Below, piece by piece: positions 2,986 through 53,689 of a DNA stretch of 64,000 bases. The translations under genes were made by a program, and so were the position numbers. The notes below the pieces were generated by a model. The model was not told the DNA's origin, did no database searches, and saw only the letters and a list, made by a program, of their open reading frames with translations. Numbering within the stretch: the first letter of the stretch is position 1; each line of letters opens with the position of its first letter. The stretch spans positions 1 to 64,000 of IMG/VR virus record IMGVR_UViG_3300027801_001493. One strand, written 5' to 3'. Source of the DNA: a virus.

Positions 2986-3294
2986 TTAATCTAGTAAGAC
3001 TGCTTTTAATTCACCTGATTCATGCATCTCTGTGATAATATCACAGCCACCTATCAGCTCACCCTTTACAAACAGTTGTGGGAATGTGGGCCAATCACTA
3101 ACTTCAGGAAGTGTTGCTCTGACTTCGTTATCTTCTAGTATATCGAAATAACTGAATTGTGCTTTATGCTCTTTTAATATATCTACTACAGTAGCACTAA
3201 ATCCGCATCTTGGTTGATGTGGGTCGCCTTTCATAAACAATATAATATCGTTGTCTTTGATTATTTGTTCTAATTGTTCTTTTGTATTACTCAT
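2986..3294 (-). CDS. grxD: Monothiol glutaredoxin (CGFS type)
   Basis: A full-length 102-residue Grx4/GrxD-family protein. It has the monothiol active site CGFS at residues 30-33, preceded by the conserved FMKGDPHQPRC, then WPTFPQ (residues 68-73, cis-Pro loop) and GGCD (82-85), which binds glutathione. CGFS glutaredoxins bind and transfer [2Fe-2S] clusters as glutathione-bridged dimers rather than acting as general reductases. The start overlaps the end of the cytochrome c gene by 8 nt, so the two are probably translated together. A role in Fe-S supply to host or phage Fe-S enzymes, such as the radical SAM proteins in this window, is inference. Confidence 0.93.
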   Translation of the reverse strand: MSNTKEQLEQIIKDNDIILFMKGDPHQPRCGFSATVVDILKEHKAQFSYFDILEDNEVRATLPEVSDWPTFPQLFVKGELIGGCDIITEMHESGELKAVLLD

Positions 3295-3757
3295 CTGGAA
3301 ATCCCTCTTCTACGAACAGACTTAACTGTTCTATTTGTTTGTCCGATAGTCCTGCGGCTTGACCCCACATCATCGTACTGTTCATTCCTATTTTTTCTCT
3401 ATTTTTGTAAGCATTTAGCCTGCCTGCTATATAGTCTGAACTTTGTCCTGCTAACTTAGGAAACATACCTTGTCCCTGTCCTTGTGCACCATGACATGCG
3501 GCACAACCTGCCCATAGTCCTCTGATGTTTTCAAACACATCAACTATGCCTGCTTCTTCTTTGGCTATTGCTATAGCCTTTTGTTCTTGTATTTGTTCTC
3601 CAACTGTACCATTGTCTGCAACATACTGCTCGTAGCATTCGCCTGTGCAACTATGATTACTTGCATAGCCTTTGTACTCTACGTTTGGATATATAACCCC
3701 TACAAAAAAGACTGTGAATACAGCAATGCCACCTAATACTAAACCTAATTCTCTCAT
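3287..3757 (-). CDS. Membrane-anchored class I cytochrome c
   Basis: The 156-residue protein starts with an uncleaved-looking membrane segment (about residues 5-23), so the rest should face the periplasm. The haem site is CAACH at residues 85-89. It is followed by GQGQGMFPKLAGQSSDYI and a C-terminal LSDKQIEQLSLFVEEGF, typical of the c4/c553-like fold. Met125 or Met129/130 is the likely sixth ligand. An extra pair, Cys37 and Cys41, lies between the anchor and the haem domain and might be a disulfide. The gene sits between two glutaredoxins. Haem attachment would depend on host cytochrome maturation. A membrane c-type cytochrome is unusual in a phage; an electron-transport role during infection is inference. 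Confidence 0.88.
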   Translation of the reverse strand: MRELGLVLGGIAVFTVFFVGVIYPNVEYKGYASNHSCTGECYEQYVADNGTVGEQIQEQKAIAIAKEEAGIVDVFENIRGLWAGCAACHGAQGQGQGMFPKLAGQSSDYIAGRLNAYKNREKIGMNSTMMWGQAAGLSDKQIEQLSLFVEEGFPDE

Positions 3758-3996
3758 TACTTACCTAAGCCTTCACGCATTACTAATGTTTTAAACTCTT
3801 GGTAGCCGCCAATCTTTTCGCCATCAACTATAATCTGTGGGAAAGTTCTTGCACCTGGAAATGTTTCCATTAGTGCTTCTCTGTCAAAGTCTTCGTCCAA
3901 CATTTTAACTGTTAAATCGTATTCTTTTTGTGTTGCTAAGTTCTTTGCCATATCACAGTATGGGCATTGTGGTTTACTGTAAATTTCTACTATCAT
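3757..3996 (-). CDS. Dithiol glutaredoxin (CPYC type)
   Basis: A 79-residue thioredoxin-fold protein with active site CPYC (residues 11-14), the cis-proline motif TFPQ (51-54) and GGY (63-65). The start ATG at 3996 follows AAGGAATAAT; a longer in-frame ATG at 4050 would overlap the neighbouring gene. Dithiol glutaredoxins reduce ribonucleotide reductase and protein disulfides with glutathione. The stop overlaps the cytochrome c start as TAATG. It could serve the phage NrdC role, or act with the adjacent cytochrome and CGFS glutaredoxin. Confidence 0.9.
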   Translation of the reverse strand: MIVEIYSKPQCPYCDMAKNLATQKEYDLTVKMLDEDFDREALMETFPGARTFPQIIVDGEKIGGYQEFKTLVMREGLGK

Positions 3997-7536: not shown

Positions 7537-7682
7537 CGATCTCTATACTCCATTGGCTTACAAATTGTAATAGGATGTCCATGCTCTGTAAATTCCGTTG
7601 TACAATTTGCATACTGCCAGTACGTTGTGAAACTAAACAATGCTAGTAGTAATAATGATATCAAAACAATAACTCTATTCAT
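7533..7682 (-). CDS. Small signal-anchored protein (49 residues)
   Basis: Starts MNRVIVLISLLLLALFSFTTYW, a signal peptide or anchor, followed by a short tail with two cysteines (Cys27, Cys41), which suggests an exported or membrane peptide. The start forms TAATG with the QueE stop; the end forms ATGA with the next gene. Confidence 0.65.
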   Translation of the reverse strand: MNRVIVLISLLLLALFSFTTYWQYANCTTEFTEHGHPITICKPMEYRDR

Positions 7683-8611
7683 TAAGTACCCCACGCATTA
7701 CCAAACAAACTAATATGCAATCTAGGACTAAACTTGTATCCTGTCTGCATACATGCTTCTGCAACATCTTTCTCTGTGAGCTCTTGTTGTTCAAACGTTG
7801 CACCTTCTGGCATACAGTAAATAGAATCTATCTTAACTCCTGCTTTCTTGTATGCATCTACAAACATATCAACTTCATCAAAGTCAGTCTTGTCTCTAAC
7901 AACAAATTTATTATATAAAAAACTGTTCTCTACTTTGTTCATACTAACTAATGCATCTGGTATAAGTGTATCTTCTAACTTCTCTGCACTAATAGTTAGT
8001 TTAGGTGATGTACTCCAAGTAACATGTACATCTCTGCCTTCATTGTTAAAGTATTCAGTCATATTATCTTCACAATGCTTACTGCCATTAGTTTCAAATG
8101 TTACATTAACTAATCCATAGTCAGAATGTAATATATCAATAAGGTCGGGCCAGACACGTTGCCACCCTAGTAGCGGTTCACCACCTGTAATCACCAAGTG
8201 AATGTCTTCGCCGTGCCGGCCCTGGAATGTGCCATTGGGTAAAAGCGATGTGATGTGATTAACCACTTCACTTACTGACTTTGTCATCTGTAAGTGTTTA
8301 TACTTCGCCGCCCAACTGGCACTACTGTCACACCCTATAGGGGTAACAGGTAAATCTTCAATGCTTTTATAAGCATTGGGATGGTTCTTGTCTGCACGTT
8401 CATCAGTTAGGTAAGGCATACTTTCCTTCGCTATGATGTCTCCACGTGGCTGTCCAAATCCTGCACATTCAAAGTTACAACCAAAAGTCCTTAAGAATAT
8501 ACTTGGCACACCTACCCAACGTCCTTCTCCTTGTACGGAGTAGAATGCTTCGGAGTACCTTAACTTAGGTTCCTTCTTAACTTTGCTGTCAAATTTCTTT
8601 ACTTCAATCAT
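7682..8611 (-). CDS. queE: 7-carboxy-7-deazaguanine synthase, radical SAM (QueE)
   Basis: QueE converts 6-carboxy-tetrahydropterin to 7-carboxy-7-deazaguanine, the second committed step to preQ0. The N-terminus has YSEAFYSVQGEGRWVGVPSIFLRTFGCNFEC, the QueE signature, and ITGGEPLL follows. Numbering from the longer ATG at 8638, the first two cluster cysteines are Cys54 and Cys58 and the likely third is Cys103 in GCDSSASW, leaving about 44 residues between the second and third. I chose ATG 8611 because AAGAAGAAATA precedes it and the upstream overlap is then 8 nt. FolE, a QueD-like protein and DpdA lie nearby. Confidence 0.88.
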   Translation of the reverse strand: MIEVKKFDSKVKKEPKLRYSEAFYSVQGEGRWVGVPSIFLRTFGCNFECAGFGQPRGDIIAKESMPYLTDERADKNHPNAYKSIEDLPVTPIGCDSSASWAAKYKHLQMTKSVSEVVNHITSLLPNGTFQGRHGEDIHLVITGGEPLLGWQRVWPDLIDILHSDYGLVNVTFETNGSKHCEDNMTEYFNNEGRDVHVTWSTSPKLTISAEKLEDTLIPDALVSMNKVENSFLYNKFVVRDKTDFDEVDMFVDAYKKAGVKIDSIYCMPEGATFEQQELTEKDVAEACMQTGYKFSPRLHISLFGNAWGT

Positions 8612-9134
8612 TATTTCTTCTTTGTATGTATTCATCATAGTCTAAGTCTTTCTTAGTTCTATCAATGTCTGTAAGTATATCTGGTACTGCTCTATGCAAT
8701 GCCTCATTAACTAATACATGTAATTCTGAATCAAACTCTCTTTCTTCTTCTACTGTTATAACATTATCTAAACAACAGATTCTTAATCCTTGATTCATTA
8801 GTTTAGCAAAGTTACCTTCCTGTGGATAAAAGTAATGTCCTTTTGCTACTAGTTTAATGTATACCACTTGGTGTAGGTTGGTTACTTCGATAACAGTATC
8901 TTCTGCACCTTTGCCCACGTTTACTAATTGTAATATCTTATCTGTATCCGCCATTGGGATATTAGTATTGTCCGAGTAAAAGTGAATAGCCTCATAGACA
9001 TCTTCGTGTGTAAGTTTAGGATATATTCTAGTTAAGGCATCAAGTGTTTTACCTTTACCTATGTTTGCACATATAGTATCTACTGGAACTAATCCATTTG
9101 TTGTTACGAATCCTGATTGTCTGCGTTCTATCAT
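8604..9134 (-). CDS. Hypothetical protein with DUF433-like N-terminus
   Basis: 176 residues. The N-terminal block FVTTNGLVPVDTICANIGKGKTLDALTR..YPKLTHEDVYEAI follows the pattern of DUF433 helix-turn-helix proteins (GTRIPVxxI...YPxLTxEDVxxA). The rest is an alpha/beta domain I do not recognise. It lies between folE and queE, 2 nt from folE, so it may be part of the deazaguanine operon. The DUF433 resemblance is by eye. Confidence 0.55.
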   Translation of the reverse strand: MIERRQSGFVTTNGLVPVDTICANIGKGKTLDALTRIYPKLTHEDVYEAIHFYSDNTNIPMADTDKILQLVNVGKGAEDTVIEVTNLHQVVYIKLVAKGHYFYPQEGNFAKLMNQGLRICCLDNVITVEEEREFDSELHVLVNEALHRAVPDILTDIDRTKKDLDYDEYIQRRNND

Positions 9135-9136
9135 AT

Positions 9137-9829
9137 TTAACCTTTACCGTTTGCAAATTGCTGTTGAAGTTTAATATTATCCATAAACTCCTGTTGTACT
9201 TTAGCCTCTTCTTTAAATGCGCCTTCTAATACAGTCGTTTGTGTAAGACTGCTGTGTGCTTGTACACCTCTATTCTCTACGCAACCGTGTGTGGCTTGTA
9301 TGTAAACTCCTACATGGTCAGTTACACATGCTTTCTTAATCTCTCTAGCAATATCATTGCATAGTTCTTCTTGTAGTGTTCCTCTACTTGCACACCATTG
9401 TGCTATTCTAGTATATTTAGACAAACCTATTAGTTTATCACTTGCAATAACACCTATGTATGCTACACCTTTAACTGTTTGGTGATGATGAGAACACATA
9501 CTTGTAATCTCACTTCTAATTACAATCATACCTTTGTAACCATCTTCTACATGGTTAGGGAATGCCGTAGCATTAGGGATAGGATCATACCTACCAGTCA
9601 TTAGTTCATTGATATACATCTTTGCTAGACGTTTACCAGTCTGGTTACTGTTAGGATCGTTCTCAATGTCAATTACTAGTCCATCTAGTACTGCTTCAAA
9701 CTTAGGAGTCAACTCATCTACTAGTAATTGCTTATCACCTTCATGTAGGAACTCACTGATGTTATCACCAGCCCAAAACTTTGCTCCTGCTTTTTTAATT
9801 CTTGCTTTTATTATATCGCTTGTACTCAT
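9137..9829 (-). CDS. folE: GTP cyclohydrolase I (FolE)
   Basis: FolE opens GTP to 7,8-dihydroneopterin triphosphate, the entry to folate and 7-deazaguanine synthesis. The family block SMCSHHHQTVKGVAYIGVI and a later THGCVENRGVQ supply the zinc ligands (Cys and His, then the second Cys); GLSKYTRIAQWCASRGTLQE follows the canonical order. ATG 9829 is preferred because it overlaps the previous stop as ATGA and follows GGAGGGATAGG. With QueE and DpdA present, DNA modification is a more likely purpose than folate. Confidence 0.93.
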   Translation of the reverse strand: MSTSDIIKARIKKAGAKFWAGDNISEFLHEGDKQLLVDELTPKFEAVLDGLVIDIENDPNSNQTGKRLAKMYINELMTGRYDPIPNATAFPNHVEDGYKGMIVIRSEITSMCSHHHQTVKGVAYIGVIASDKLIGLSKYTRIAQWCASRGTLQEELCNDIAREIKKACVTDHVGVYIQATHGCVENRGVQAHSSLTQTTVLEGAFKEEAKVQQEFMDNIKLQQQFANGKG

Positions 9830-10095
9830 CCTATCCCTCCAGGCCAATCATCTAAGTAATGTTTGGTTGTTTTTTCTATAATTCCGTTGTTCCAATTTTC
9901 AGCACAATCATTTGCATAATGTATACTTTTACCTGGTAACTCTCTTGTTTCAATGAGAACATTATCCTCATACATCTCAACTTGCCAGCAAGTAGTTTCT
10001 AATACTCTTGAGCTACGTTCAGTTGTACCTTTAATTTTGTTCTTCATTGTGTTAAAATCTCTATCTATATCCTCAAATAATTCTAATTGAATCAC
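9826..10095 (-). CDS. Hypothetical protein
   Basis: About 89 residues. I place the start at GTG 10095, which overlaps the preceding stop as GTGA and follows AGGAGTGGTGGAA; an upstream GTG at 10104 is also open. It contains CWQVEMYEDNVLIETRELPGKSIHYANDCAENW, a short beta-rich segment. No family recognised. Confidence 0.6.
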   Translation of the reverse strand: MIQLELFEDIDRDFNTMKNKIKGTTERSSRVLETTCWQVEMYEDNVLIETRELPGKSIHYANDCAENWNNGIIEKTTKHYLDDWPGGIG

Positions 10096-14061: not shown

Positions 14062-14580
14062 TTAGTCAATGACTTTATCTCCAACGTATGCGGACCAATC
14101 AGTATAGCTGGTCCTGTTTCTTAAATTGTGTATACTATGACACCAAACTCCACCATTGGGACCTTTGAATGCCTTATCATCTATCTTCAATGTAGCATTA
14201 TAATTAAACTGATTAACATATGGCATAGGTACACTTATCATTGCTACGAACTTGTTGTACTCATCATACCCTGACTCTAATACTTGTTCACAGTATTTTG
14301 CATTGAAGTCTAGTGTAACCCAAACATCTGCTTTAATAAGTTCATGTACTATGTAGTCCCAGGCTTGCCAATCTTGTGGAGTCTCTGGATTAAATGTGTA
14401 ACCACATCCTAAGTAAACATGCTCGATGCCGTTGTCTAACATACGTTGTAGTATCTCTTTAGGATTCTGTTTTCCTACTACAAACAATGTATTCATACCA
14501 AACAGCGGACTGCGTTCTACTTCTACACCTATAAAATAATTAGGATTATCTCCAAAATTTTCTCTATTTTCTACTTTCAT
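14062..14580 (-). CDS. Conserved T4-like phage hypothetical protein
   Basis: 172 residues. It begins with NFGDNPNYFIGVEVERSPLFGMNTLFV and has strand-helix units (HVYLGCGYTFNP, ADVWVTLDFNAKY, VAMISVPMPYV). This is the rhythm of a partial TIM-barrel. I recognise related proteins in marine T4-like phages, often near deazaguanine genes, with no proven role. Confidence 0.65.
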   Translation of the reverse strand: MKVENRENFGDNPNYFIGVEVERSPLFGMNTLFVVGKQNPKEILQRMLDNGIEHVYLGCGYTFNPETPQDWQAWDYIVHELIKADVWVTLDFNAKYCEQVLESGYDEYNKFVAMISVPMPYVNQFNYNATLKIDDKAFKGPNGGVWCHSIHNLRNRTSYTDWSAYVGDKVID

Positions 14581-14762
14581 ACTATATGATCCTCACGTTC
14601 TTTCTTTGCTGTTCGTTTAACACCTGACTTGCTTGTATACTCATCTGTAATACCTTTTGTTCCTGCAGGAAGTTCTTTTACTAATACATACAAAATCATG
14701 AATATCATAATTGATACTCCGATTGCAAATAAAATAAAATCTATTGTAATTAACTCATCCAT
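14577..14762 (-). CDS. Small membrane protein
   Basis: 61 residues with one membrane segment (FILFAIGVSIMIFMILYVLV) and a basic C-terminal tail (SKSGVKRTAKKERED). Overlaps the next gene by 4 nt (ATGA) and the previous one by 13 nt. Confidence 0.6.
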   Translation of the reverse strand: MDELITIDFILFAIGVSIMIFMILYVLVKELPAGTKGITDEYTSKSGVKRTAKKEREDHIV

Positions 14763-16732: not shown

Positions 16733-16868
16733 TATCACTTATCAACTTAACTTCGAATGTATCTTCCTCACTATCATGTTCTACTACAAAGGGAGGTACT
16801 GCACCTTCCTGCTCTAATAGTTCCAATCCTTGTGTGAATGTTCTAAACTCGTCCCTAGTCATTTTCAT
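16716..16868 (-). CDS. Small acidic protein (50 residues)
   Basis: Begins MKMTRDEFRTFTQGLELLEQ and ends FEVKLISDNEPRF. Its ATG overlaps the DpdA stop as TAATG. A helix followed by a short strand; no family recognised. Confidence 0.55.
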   Translation of the reverse strand: MKMTRDEFRTFTQGLELLEQEGAVPPFVVEHDSEEDTFEVKLISDNEPRF

Positions 16869-18430
16869 TACAGTTCCTCAATTAAATTATCAAGTGCCTT
16901 CTCTTGGATTGCACCAAACTCCTCTTCAACCTGTTGCTCAACTTCCTCATCAAAGAACATACTAGCCGTACTATTTTTAAATGCACTATCGTGATCCTTG
17001 TGTTTGTTATTACTAACATCATCTAAGAATGGTCTGGCATCTTCTAATAATTTATAAGGGTCGGAACTTGTGAATAGTTCTTTAACAAATGTATCAAACA
17101 TTAACATATTCCTAGGCGTGTATAAACTTTCTTGATTAAGTTTCTTACCTTTCTTCTGCCAGTTTCTCCAATCTAATTGATAGTTCTCACATTCCATTGT
17201 TGCTAGGCTGTTTGCTTCTTGTACTGCTCTAATATGCATGTATACATTGTGAGACATCAGTAAGCCGTATGTGAAACTATCCCATGAAGTCTTGCCTTCC
17301 TTGTGTATCTTGTTCAACATACCAGGAGCATACCAATTAACATCACCAGTTGTAAGTCTACTACCAATCTCACTCTCCCAAGGGAAAGGATTTTCAGATA
17401 TGTTGCCTGGACTAAAGTGACTGAATGCTTTGTTATCAAAACACTTCTCCATAATGTAACTCATTTGTCCTGATGTAATCTTGTTTCTAGTATACACTAA
17501 TCCGTTTGCACTACTAATGTATGGACTAGCACAATCAAAACTAACTGTGATATTTGGATTGATGTGTTCTCTTATTTGTCTTTGTATGCTTGTGAGCATT
17601 ACACCCCATTCAAGTTTACTAGTACCCAAGAAGTGAATCCAGTCCTTGTCATGTAGTAAGCCATCGTCTCGCATAATCATAATACGTTTGAGTACCATAT
17701 GCATATCACGAATGTTGTTACCACCCATGCCCCAACCTTCTAATCCATCTGGACCTTGGGAGTAAGGCTTAACTGTTTGATACCATTCTTCTGCATCGTC
17801 CCAATACGTTCCTTGTAATACATTTAGGAACTTTGTATTGCCTATACGATTATCTTTAAACCAATCTAAGTTATATGTAGTACACTTTAAACACTCATCA
17901 AAGTTGTTTAGTCCTGTCTTTTCTCTAAAGCCAGGCTTACATGCCCAACTTGGTACATCAAATGTCATACTCCAATCTGCTGTTCCTTCTAACCATGCTA
18001 GTATCTTTGCTCGGACTCTATCGGCATCGCCCTTGTAATTCGCATCGCCTGGTTTCTCAAAGAAGTTTTCCCAGTCAAACTTAATAACACCTTTACCAAT
18101 TTGGAAACCACCTGAGTCTCCAACAATAGTTGTATTAGTTCTATCTCTACCTTGTATAATGTGTTCCATTACAGCAGACTTATCTAAGTCTAAGTAAGCA
18201 TGACCGGCACTATAAAGTGCTTTGTTGTAATAGTAGTAACCTTTCTCTTTATCTAAAAAGTTCATACCTTCCATGCCATGTTCAAAACCTTTAGGAACTC
18301 TGCTTCTTCCGTCTACTTCTGGAATATATCCTTCTACACTATTACATCTACCTAATAGCTCTGTAAAGAAGCCACTTATCGCTGGCAGGAATGTAGCATA
18401 ATCGCTGTGTTTTGAGGATAAATCTCTCAT
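16868..18430 (-). CDS. dpdA: DpdA-type DNA 7-deazaguanine transglycosylase (TGT-like)
   Basis: DpdA exchanges guanine in DNA for a 7-deazaguanine base, usually preQ0. The 520-residue protein keeps tRNA-guanine transglycosylase landmarks: GDSGGFQ (104-110, general-base Asp105), NVLQG (203-207), GWGMGG (232-237), HFLGTSK (267-272) and SFDCASPY (297-304), where Asp299 matches the TGT nucleophile. The C-terminal CxCxxC zinc site of tRNA TGTs is not seen, consistent with a DNA enzyme. FolE, QueE and a QueD-like protein are upstream in transcription-linked clusters; no QueC is in the window. It starts one base inside the clamp gene end. A tRNA-directed role is the main alternative. Confidence 0.82.
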   Translation of the reverse strand: MRDLSSKHSDYATFLPAISGFFTELLGRCNSVEGYIPEVDGRSRVPKGFEHGMEGMNFLDKEKGYYYYNKALYSAGHAYLDLDKSAVMEHIIQGRDRTNTTIVGDSGGFQIGKGVIKFDWENFFEKPGDANYKGDADRVRAKILAWLEGTADWSMTFDVPSWACKPGFREKTGLNNFDECLKCTTYNLDWFKDNRIGNTKFLNVLQGTYWDDAEEWYQTVKPYSQGPDGLEGWGMGGNNIRDMHMVLKRIMIMRDDGLLHDKDWIHFLGTSKLEWGVMLTSIQRQIREHINPNITVSFDCASPYISSANGLVYTRNKITSGQMSYIMEKCFDNKAFSHFSPGNISENPFPWESEIGSRLTTGDVNWYAPGMLNKIHKEGKTSWDSFTYGLLMSHNVYMHIRAVQEANSLATMECENYQLDWRNWQKKGKKLNQESLYTPRNMLMFDTFVKELFTSSDPYKLLEDARPFLDDVSNNKHKDHDSAFKNSTASMFFDEEVEQQVEEEFGAIQEKALDNLIEEL

Positions 18431-50883: not shown

Positions 50884-51522
50884 TTAGTCATTTTTGATTA
50901 CAATGACTCGAATAATATTTTTAATTACATTGCCTTTTTGCAGTTTCATAAAGAACTGTACGTCTTCAATATCTTTTTCATTCAAGTATGTGTTTCGTGT
51001 ATTTGTTTTGCTATCAGCAACACTCATTACATTATCGCCCAAGTCTTCAAAATATTTATACCAATCCCGGCCCGTGGAGTGGTTTCCTCCACCATATACC
51101 TCGGCAACGTTGGGCCAATCCCATACAATTTTTGTATCAAACTTTCCAAAGTACTTGCTTGTTCTTATTTCCCATTGCTCTAACGCATGGTTGCTTATGG
51201 AATTAACTTTTTGTAATGCTTCACAATGAGACTTACTTATAGGACCCATAATTAAATTTACTGCATCACCAAATATATACATGAATTCTTCAAATGCATC
51301 TAATGTTTTAAAATACACATGCCTAGTATAGTTGTCTACTATCTTCATATGTTTGCTACGAAAGTCATCGTGTACATATCTAACAATAGCCGCAGATTTA
51401 TCTATATCTTCATAATTTATACTGTTACCAAGCAGTCTTACTTTAAAAGGATAATGTGCATAGTATACTTTATCAGAGCCTACTATTTTACAATTATACT
51501 TCTTTGGGTCTAGTGGTTTCAA
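50884..51522 (-). CDS. Hypothetical protein with TTG start
   Basis: 212 residues starting at TTG 51522 (KPLDPKKYNCKIVGSDKVYY), with GGAGAAG 7 nt upstream. There is no in-frame ATG before residue 59. It contains YFKTLDAFEEFMYIFGDAVNLIMGPISKSH and YLNEKDIEDVQFFMKLQKG. It overlaps the clpA end by 29 nt. Function unknown. Confidence 0.65.
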   Translation of the reverse strand: MKPLDPKKYNCKIVGSDKVYYAHYPFKVRLLGNSINYEDIDKSAAIVRYVHDDFRSKHMKIVDNYTRHVYFKTLDAFEEFMYIFGDAVNLIMGPISKSHCEALQKVNSISNHALEQWEIRTSKYFGKFDTKIVWDWPNVAEVYGGGNHSTGRDWYKYFEDLGDNVMSVADSKTNTRNTYLNEKDIEDVQFFMKLQKGNVIKNIIRVIVIKND

Positions 51523-53689
51523 TGTTTACTTCTCCATCTATGTCCTGAACAGTAACAAATAAATTTTTCATATCCTCAAATAAAATCTTTTTACTTAAAG
51601 GTTTTTTAAGTTCATTCTCGAACAATCGTTTTAATGGTCTCGCTCCCATTGATGGGTCGTATCCTTTATCTACAAAGTAAGTAACTGCACTCTTGTCTAG
51701 CTCTATTGCAATGTTTCTCTCTTTTAATTGTTCGTTAATTTCTTCTTCAAGGCGTTTTACAATCTTTTCAACTACACCTTTATCTAATTTGTTGAATCTA
51801 ATTACAGCATCTAATCTGTTTCTAAACTCTGGAGTGAAGAAACTTTTAACTGCCGCAACATCTGTATCAATTTTAGTATTTTTACCAAATCCAATTTTAA
51901 GTTTCTCTGCATCTGCGGCTCCTAAGTTACTGGTCATTAACAATACAACATTAGTAAAGTCTGTCTTTTTACCTGTTGCGCCTGTTAAGTGTCCATCGTC
52001 CATTACTTGTAGTAATACCTGCAATACCTCTGGTGCGGCTTTCTCAACCTCATCAAGTAACAATACGCAATTAGGATTTTCTTCTACTGCTGTGAGTAGT
52101 TGTCCTTGCCCCATTTTGCCTTCTGCATGTCCAACATATCCTGGAGGAGCACCAATAAGTTTACTTACACTATGTCGTTCCTGATACTCTGACATATCAA
52201 AACGTACTAGTTTACTTTCTAATGCTACTGCTAATTGTTTAGCACTTTCTGTTTTACCTGTACCAGTTGGTCCTACTAATAGGAAACTACCCACCGGCTT
52301 GTTCGCTTCTCTTAATCCTGATTTAGCAACTAGTATACTTTCAACAATGCTATCAATTGCTTCGTCTTGTCCGTATACTTTTGTTTTAATTCTTTTATCT
52401 AAACTTTTATATCCTTGTGTGCTATCAACATCAATAACATCTTTACCAATCTTACTCATCTTGCTTATAACATGTAGAATGTCATCTTGCATTACTTCTG
52501 TTTCGCCTCTGAGTTTTGTTCTGGCTCCAGCCGCATCAATAATATCTACTGCTTTGTCTGGGAAGAATTTATTCTTAATGTACCTGTCTGCTAAGTCTAC
52601 ACTTTTCTCTACCATTTCATCTGTGTACGTTACATTATGGAATGCTTCAAAGTAAGGCTTTAGTCCTACAGCAATTTTAATTGTATCTTCTACATTAGTA
52701 GGCTCAATATCTATACGTTGGAATCTACGCATTAATGCTTTGTCTTTTTCAAAATGTGTTGCGTACTCATCATTAGTTGTAGCACCCATAGTAAGCATCT
52801 TACCTCTTCCTAACACAGGCTTTAACAAGTTTGCTATATCTACATTACTACTGCCGGCACTACCGGCTCCCATTATCATATGAATCTCATCAATAAACAA
52901 TATAATGTTCTTGTTCTTTTCTAAGTTATCTAATACAATTTTAATACGTTCCTCAAAGTCTCCTCTGTATCTAGTACCAGCAAGTAAGGCACCAATGTCT
53001 AAGCTGAATACTGTTTTGTCTTTAAGTGCATTAGGTACTTGACCTTCTACAATTTTTAATGCTAGTCCTTCAGCAATAGCAGTTTTACCTGTGCCTGGCT
53101 CACCAATTAGTAATGGATTGTTTTTCTTACGTCTTGCTAAAATATGTACCAAGTCATCTACTTCTTCCATTCTACCTATAAGTGGATCTATCTCACTTTC
53201 AGATGCTTTTTCATTTAAGTTAATTAAAAATTCTTCTGCATCTTTCATAGCATCGCCAACACTTTGATTCTTAGTTAGGTGCTCTATAAGTTTAAATCTA
53301 TGTATACCGTTAAGTTCTAGTAAGTATCTAGCATGTGTATTCTCTTCTGATAGAATACTAACAAGTAAGTCCATTGCATTCACTTGTTCTCTAGCACTGA
53401 ATATTACTTGGGCAAATGCTCGTTGTAATACACGTTCGATACTAACAGTTTTCTTAGGTCTACCGTCCCATGGTACTTCACCATGTAGTCCATTGTATGC
53501 TGTATCGTTTAAGTATTCGTGTAAATCAGTCTTAGCGGTTTCCCAATCACATTCAACTAGTTGAAGTATATCTGTTACGTCAGAATCTTCTAGTAAGCAG
53601 TACACTAAATGTTCTAGTGTTACATACTCATGTTTGTTATCTGTTGCATAATTAACTGCACATTCTATTACATTATCTACGTTGCTCAT
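51494..53689 (-). CDS. clpA: ClpA-like AAA+ unfoldase
   Basis: 731 residues, near E. coli ClpA (758). The N-domain (VTLEHLVYCLLEDSDVTDIL) binds adaptors. The first AAA+ module has GEPGTGKT and IILFIDEIHMIMGAGSAG; the second has GPTGTGKT, LLLDEVEKA and RNRLDAVI. An IGF tripeptide at residues 599-601 aligns with the ClpA IGL loop that docks ClpP, so it may redirect host ClpP. No ClpP gene is in the window. It follows dnaJ behind an early promoter. Confidence 0.93.
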   Translation of the reverse strand: MSNVDNVIECAVNYATDNKHEYVTLEHLVYCLLEDSDVTDILQLVECDWETAKTDLHEYLNDTAYNGLHGEVPWDGRPKKTVSIERVLQRAFAQVIFSAREQVNAMDLLVSILSEENTHARYLLELNGIHRFKLIEHLTKNQSVGDAMKDAEEFLINLNEKASESEIDPLIGRMEEVDDLVHILARRKKNNPLLIGEPGTGKTAIAEGLALKIVEGQVPNALKDKTVFSLDIGALLAGTRYRGDFEERIKIVLDNLEKNKNIILFIDEIHMIMGAGSAGSSNVDIANLLKPVLGRGKMLTMGATTNDEYATHFEKDKALMRRFQRIDIEPTNVEDTIKIAVGLKPYFEAFHNVTYTDEMVEKSVDLADRYIKNKFFPDKAVDIIDAAGARTKLRGETEVMQDDILHVISKMSKIGKDVIDVDSTQGYKSLDKRIKTKVYGQDEAIDSIVESILVAKSGLREANKPVGSFLLVGPTGTGKTESAKQLAVALESKLVRFDMSEYQERHSVSKLIGAPPGYVGHAEGKMGQGQLLTAVEENPNCVLLLDEVEKAAPEVLQVLLQVMDDGHLTGATGKKTDFTNVVLLMTSNLGAADAEKLKIGFGKNTKIDTDVAAVKSFFTPEFRNRLDAVIRFNKLDKGVVEKIVKRLEEEINEQLKERNIAIELDKSAVTYFVDKGYDPSMGARPLKRLFENELKKPLSKKILFEDMKNLFVTVQDIDGEVNIETTRPKEV

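Follow-up and report, generated by a model that had tools for sequence, protein, structure and literature searches.

A common clade of predicted membrane-anchored c-type cytochromes in T4-like phages without a cultured representative

Photosynthetic electron flow is a known target of cyanophage control. The plastocyanin (petE) and the plastoquinol terminal oxidase (PTOX) encoded by cyanophages are thought to sustain electron flow in infected cells (PMC5082946), and as phage-encoded electron-transport proteins they are the nearest concept to the cytochrome described here; they are, however, copper proteins or oxidases of phages with photosynthetic hosts, whereas the present phage encodes a putative haem c-type carrier whose cellular relatives are gammaproteobacterial. 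For aquatic phages, a viral AlaS of the Shemin pathway has been suggested to aid the respiratory haem proteins of the host (PMC11480375). This enzyme makes a haem precursor, in contrast to the present gene, which would encode the haem-carrying electron carrier itself. In a study of nitrogen-cycling phages, electron carriers were not observed in the phages analyzed (PMC8115048), and the viral-fraction reads reported for cbb3 oxidase subunit I, coxA, cydA and cytochrome b (PMC3474794, PMC3877843) represent evidence at the read level, not carrier genes in phage genomes.

The window analyzed in this study (64,000 nucleotides of IMGVR_UViG_3300027801_001493) is part of a virus record of 119,027 bases, which also encodes a T4-like DNA polymerase, a clamp loader and PhoH. 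The DNA polymerase shows at most about 45% identity to those of isolates, with jumbo phages of Sinorhizobium, Vibrio and Agrobacterium as top matches. Judging from its sequence, the source of the record is a T4-like phage, and the 119-kb record may be a fragment of the phage genome. Three genes adjoin on the minus strand: a dithiol glutaredoxin with a CPYC motif (79 aa; 3757-3996, with the ATG at 3996; Pfam PF00462, 1.3e-14; PHROG 22, 1.7e-19), a membrane-anchored class I c-type cytochrome (156 aa; 3287-3757) recognized by the Pfam family Cytochrom_C, its conserved ligands and an AF2 model, and a monothiol CGFS glutaredoxin of the Grx4/GrxD type (102 aa; 2986-3294; Pfam Glutaredoxin, 5.5e-20; NCBIfam TIGR00365). 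The stop of the CPYC glutaredoxin gene and the start of the cytochrome gene overlap by 1 nt, and the end of the latter overlaps the CGFS glutaredoxin gene by 8 nt, which makes translational coupling of the three genes plausible. The coordinates, the Pfam and NCBIfam matches and the overlaps thus confirm the three adjoining reading frames proposed in the initial annotation.

The cytochrome reaches 37.4 bits with the Pfam Cytochrom_C model (cut-off 21.3). Its N-terminal membrane helix, at about residues 3-28 (3674-3751, minus strand), is indicated by a hydropathy maximum of 2.59 in a 19-residue window and by a helix at residues 2-25 in the AF2 model; it is followed by a linker with the segment C37-x-G-x-C41 and by a class I haem domain, which contains the only CxxCH motif within the window (CAACH, residues 85-89; 3491-3505, minus strand) and the distal ligand M130. 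The numbering given earlier for Cys37, Cys41 and the haem motif (C85-A-A-C88-H89) is correct. The haem domain is modelled with a pLDDT of more than 90 and matches cytochrome c554 of Vibrio parahaemolyticus (2zzs) and c552 of Marinobacter (1cno) at 1.3-1.4 A rmsd in Foldseek; the TM-score of 0.83 on 2zzs indicates a class I fold. Structures of cytochrome c4 are also among the solved relatives of this domain, and the BFVD structures yielded no significant match to the cytochrome. The fold of the haem domain, the CxxCH motif and the distal Met are common to c554, c552, c4 and the phage cytochrome, but the former are soluble, with two haems in c4, whereas the phage cytochrome is predicted to hold a single haem and differs further by its membrane anchor and the N-terminal CxGxC segment. 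Its identity as a cytochrome c4 was ruled out by the presence of a single CxxCH in 156 aa versus the two fused haem domains required. Alphaproteobacterial cytochrome cy (CycM) consists of one N-terminal transmembrane helix, a linker and one haem domain and is tethered between bc1 and cbb3. The predicted architecture of the phage cytochrome is similar; by sequence, however, it is akin to the c4/c5-like group, and the structural match to 6xkw is only marginal. From the hydropathy and the need for Ccm we infer that the protein is anchored in the inner membrane with a periplasmic haem domain. The Pfam score, the ligands, the predicted fold and the T4-like genes of the record together uphold the assignment of a membrane-anchored c-type cytochrome to a T4-like phage.

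No match to the cytochrome was obtained in 50,697 phage records by tblastn with three divergent family members as queries, and no PHROG matches it. In IMG/VR, a first scan yielded 15 cytochrome loci and a profile scan 514 sequence stretches encoding a relative; 80 of these were read, and 67 distinct loci were used for neighbourhood counts (L017/L001, being 100% identical to the window, does not count as independent). Both the absence from isolate phage records and the open-licence literature, in which we found no phage cytochrome of this kind (a description elsewhere is possible), are in agreement with the earlier remark that a cytochrome in such a setting was not known as described. In T4-like contigs this host-type metabolic gene is located between the phage genes uvsW, gp55, nrdAB and grx, a setting that agrees with a phage auxiliary metabolic gene. 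Cellular contamination was ruled out by the T4-core flanking genes and by the relatives in 514 viral stretches. Among 66 distinct phage cytochromes, residues C37, G39, C41, Y45, C85, C88, H89, P100, L102, G104, Y117, M130 and W131 never vary, so that an N-terminal CxGxCxxxY motif is invariant, and a median dN/dS of 0.24 between close pairs of their genes indicates purifying selection; the invariant ligands and this ratio rule out a chance motif or a pseudogene. The extreme N-terminus, M[RK]ELG, is also conserved in the phage clade and particular to it. What makes the locus unusual is not the gene triplet but this common, selected phage clade of a respiratory-type cytochrome c, which has no cultured member.

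The cytochrome gene occupies at least four genomic slots, some of them without any glutaredoxin, and identical slots in sister phages lack it, which indicates an accessory, non-essential gene. A glutaredoxin is encoded within two genes of the cytochrome at 36 of the 67 distinct loci and nrdB within three genes at 31; uvsW (19/67) and gp55 (17/67) are found within four genes. Three gene orders were seen repeatedly: nrdA-nrdB-cyt-grx, uvsW-(small proteins)-cyt-gp55, and also grx-cyt-CGFS grx. The last of these, present in L017, L018, L019 and L076, accounts for 4 of the 67 distinct loci including a near-identical copy of the present phage, and a fixed functional cassette of glutaredoxin, cytochrome and glutaredoxin was ruled out on this basis. 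The three-gene order does recur in three other contigs (L018, L019, L076), although in L018 it is interrupted by a pseudoazurin gene; it is not a triplet commonly annotated in phages.

The CGFS glutaredoxin scores 139.3 bits with NCBIfam TIGR00365 (Grx4 family; cut-off 117.1), whereas the CPYC protein stays below the cut-off for glutaredoxin 3 GrxC (TIGR02181, 61.0 versus 90 bits) and is a general glutaredoxin by Pfam only. Neither carries a signal peptide or another export signal, and by family both are predicted to be cytosolic. Since the haem domain would have to lie in the periplasm, the glutaredoxins are unlikely partners of it; they would be co-transcribed with the cytochrome but not physically paired. 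A joint action of the cytochrome and the glutaredoxins on either side of it is thus not supported, given also the rarity of the triplet and the glutaredoxin-free slots. The order nrdA-nrdB-cyt-grx and the position of grx beside nrdB in many relatives tie the glutaredoxin to ribonucleotide reductase (RNR), and the CGFS protein is likely an Fe-S carrier, as suggested by its Grx4 type and by an operon for SUF Fe-S assembly in the same record (G000:C1:90862-95878, L106:6862-11878, minus strand), which encodes SufB, a SufC-like ATPase, SufD, a SufS-type desulfurase and a SufT/MIP18-type protein. SufB/D-type genes were also detected in the virus records G852 (340 kb) and G853 (217 kb), and IscU (NifU_N) and IscA-type genes in cytochrome-bearing phage contigs (L025, L026, L031, L071 and others); IscU is found at 11 of the 67 distinct loci.

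Other genes for electron transport accompany the cytochrome in relatives of the present phage. An alternative oxidase occurs at 11 of the 67 distinct loci and directly adjoins the cytochrome in L068, L071-L073 and L082 (PF01786, 3e-69); it is also encoded in the 146-kb record G840. Alternative oxidase genes are present in T4-like phage contigs L068, L070-L073, L082, L036 and others, and that of Phage C48C1 (OQ984149.1, 26279-26830) is annotated as 'hypothetical protein'. In L018/L002 a pseudoazurin gene is located between grx and cyt (L002:4567-5001; TIGR02375, 130.5 bits, equivalog cut-off 109.85), and the pseudoazurin of the relatives shows a 38% match to petE of Synechococcus phages. Neither alternative oxidase nor pseudoazurin nor RNR was found in the 119-kb record of the present phage itself. 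Immediately next to the cytochrome, genes for small transmembrane proteins are over-represented (24/56 versus 40/291, p = 2e-6). One family of tail-anchored proteins of 55-90 aa with a single transmembrane segment (L086:8441-8647, L011:4786-4998) has 177 further viral relatives and occupies the uvsW-gp55 and nrdB-grx slots whether or not the cytochrome is present; it was ruled out as an obligate partner because 39 of its 80 loci contain no cytochrome. The window encodes a small protein with one transmembrane segment at 14577-14762 (minus strand) that matches family c150 (hmmsearch, E 9e-5), and c150-type relatives of it directly precede the cytochrome gene in the phage loci L066 and L097. A tie of the window's own protein to the cytochrome locus is at most tentative.

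Cellular relatives of the cytochrome are rare. A pattern scan of 84,980 species genomes yielded five cellular loci, all in Gammaproteobacteria, and five further loci in phage-like MAG contigs (gene maps L095-L098). By HMM search, 27 of 99 genomes from the Pseudohongiella family encode a full-length member of the cellular family, as do 27 of 392 genomes of the Pseudohongiella order, where a few of the matches lack the motif; members of this cellular family occur in respiring marine Gammaproteobacteria. The phage protein has the architecture of this gammaproteobacterial CxGxCY family (N-terminal transmembrane helix, CxGxC[YF], one c domain), and the cytochromes of Pseudohongiellaceae, Halieaceae and LSUCC0096-like Gammaproteobacteria share its full-length architecture and all key residues. 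Unlike at the phage loci, no glutaredoxin or RNR genes adjoin the cellular genes in the inspected regions, and the cellular proteins form a separate clade: in our tree 38 phage sequences represent one clade (support 100/99) apart from 39 cellular sequences, which rules out that the phage members are nested within the cellular clade. The gene has thus been retained in phages for a long time and has diversified there, and the tree fits a single old capture followed by spread among phages. The cellular relatives point to marine Gammaproteobacteria as putative hosts, although the present host could differ, since the phage clade is old.

In the entire 119-kb record, CxxCH is found in only two proteins, the cytochrome and a secreted protein of 428 aa with a CVVCH motif (G000:C1:78828-80114, L105:14828-16114, minus strand). 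By eye, the latter contains His motifs resembling those of copper type II monooxygenases. It has no Pfam, NCBIfam or PDB match and no relatives in isolate phage records, but 156 viral relatives, of which 80 were read (73-98% identical). The record further encodes a ClpA-type ATPase (window 51494-53689, PHROG match), ClpP-, ClpS- and ClpX-like proteins recognized from their translations (L105:6934-7551, L106:11878-12177, L107:2177-3448), a ferredoxin (L107:8405-8755), a ferritin-like protein (L107:545-985) and a peroxiredoxin (L106:4384-4986). QueE-like, GTP cyclohydrolase-like and tRNA-guanine transglycosylase-like frames, identified by eye (window 7682-8638, 9137-9847 and 16868-18430), suggest 7-deazaguanine modification of DNA or tRNA.

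An explanation to which we would give an even chance is that the phage supplies a membrane-bound electron carrier that keeps the bc1-to-oxidase branch of its host running during infection. The infected cell would receive a membrane-tethered single-haem carrier of the cytochrome c5/c552 type, fixed in the inner membrane by the N-terminal helix with its haem domain facing the periplasm. Haem would be attached by the host Ccm, and electrons from the bc1 complex of the host, or from a different donor, might pass via the phage cytochrome to the host cbb3 or aa3 oxidase; no haem-copper oxidase or Ccm-type haem lyase was found in the phage records searched, so that host machinery would be required. 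The phage cytochrome could replace or supplement host cytochrome c after host gene shut-off and thereby sustain respiration, ATP and NAD+ regeneration until lysis, while the glutaredoxins would serve cytoplasmic ribonucleotide reduction and Fe-S supply. The Pfam and PDB relatives (c4, c552, c554) are periplasmic electron carriers, which supports this explanation, and the alternative oxidase and pseudoazurin of related phages would fit a phage strategy of steering the destination of respiratory electrons. However, a simple carrier role leaves the invariant N-terminal CxGxC unexplained, the gene is non-essential, as seen from its absence in the slots of sister phages, and the lack of alternative oxidase, pseudoazurin and RNR in the present record, itself possibly incomplete, also speaks against a carrier. 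Of the initially suggested control of host electron flow, an effect on electron flow stands as the likeliest role, and the partnership with the glutaredoxins is unsupported.

The cytochrome might instead dock on the host bc1 complex or oxidase and alter electron flow rather than maintain it, for example by throttling the cytochrome branch so that the phage alternative oxidase takes over quinol oxidation. The alternative oxidase genes at 11 of the 67 loci, several adjoining the cytochrome, would fit such a decoy, as would the long separation of the phage clade, with its own N-terminus, from cellular homologues. As no such oxidase was seen at most loci or in the present record, and as fully conserved haem ligands favour a redox-active protein, we consider this unlikely. 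It also seems improbable that the cytochrome donates electrons to a periplasmic enzyme of phage or host, such as cytochrome c peroxidase, a nitrogen-oxide reductase or the secreted 428-aa protein. The latter is encoded in the same record and has many viral relatives, two genes of this type flank a small cytochrome c gene in record G855 (L335), and the 340-kb record G852 combines one such gene with a different cytochrome c. No peroxidase was recognized near the cytochrome, however, and the 428-aa-type protein is missing from six long cytochrome-bearing records (63-146 kb) and from the 154-kb record G862, seven in all, and thus cannot be a general partner of the cytochrome family.

Thiol/disulfide control via Cys37 and Cys41, exerted together with the glutaredoxins encoded nearby or with a small membrane protein from an adjoining gene, would account for the invariance of both residues, for the frequent proximity of glutaredoxin genes and for the enrichment of small transmembrane proteins. 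Yet the glutaredoxins lack export signals, about half of the tail-anchored family's loci lack the cytochrome, and CxGxC is equally conserved in cellular homologues with no glutaredoxin among their inspected neighbours; such control is therefore quite unlikely. The absence of the gene from matching slots in sister phages could also be expected for a passenger host gene of no benefit, or for a membrane protein acting in redox-unrelated superinfection exclusion. Either of these is very unlikely, given that the gene forms one ancient clade, has hundreds of carriers and is under strong purifying selection, with haem ligands that do not vary.

Beyond the electron carrier suggested for the present phage, it is conceivable, though we are inclined to doubt it, that widespread uncultured marine T4-like phages of heterotrophs take over host respiration with a kit of their own, the membrane-bound cytochrome c clade joined in certain lineages by alternative oxidase and pseudoazurin, and re-route electrons between oxidases during infection. 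If true, this respiratory re-routing by phages would parallel the control of photosynthesis by cyanophages. With a common, selected, ligand-conserved cytochrome c clade at hand, viral control of respiration becomes directly testable by means of a single gene in a laboratory strain.
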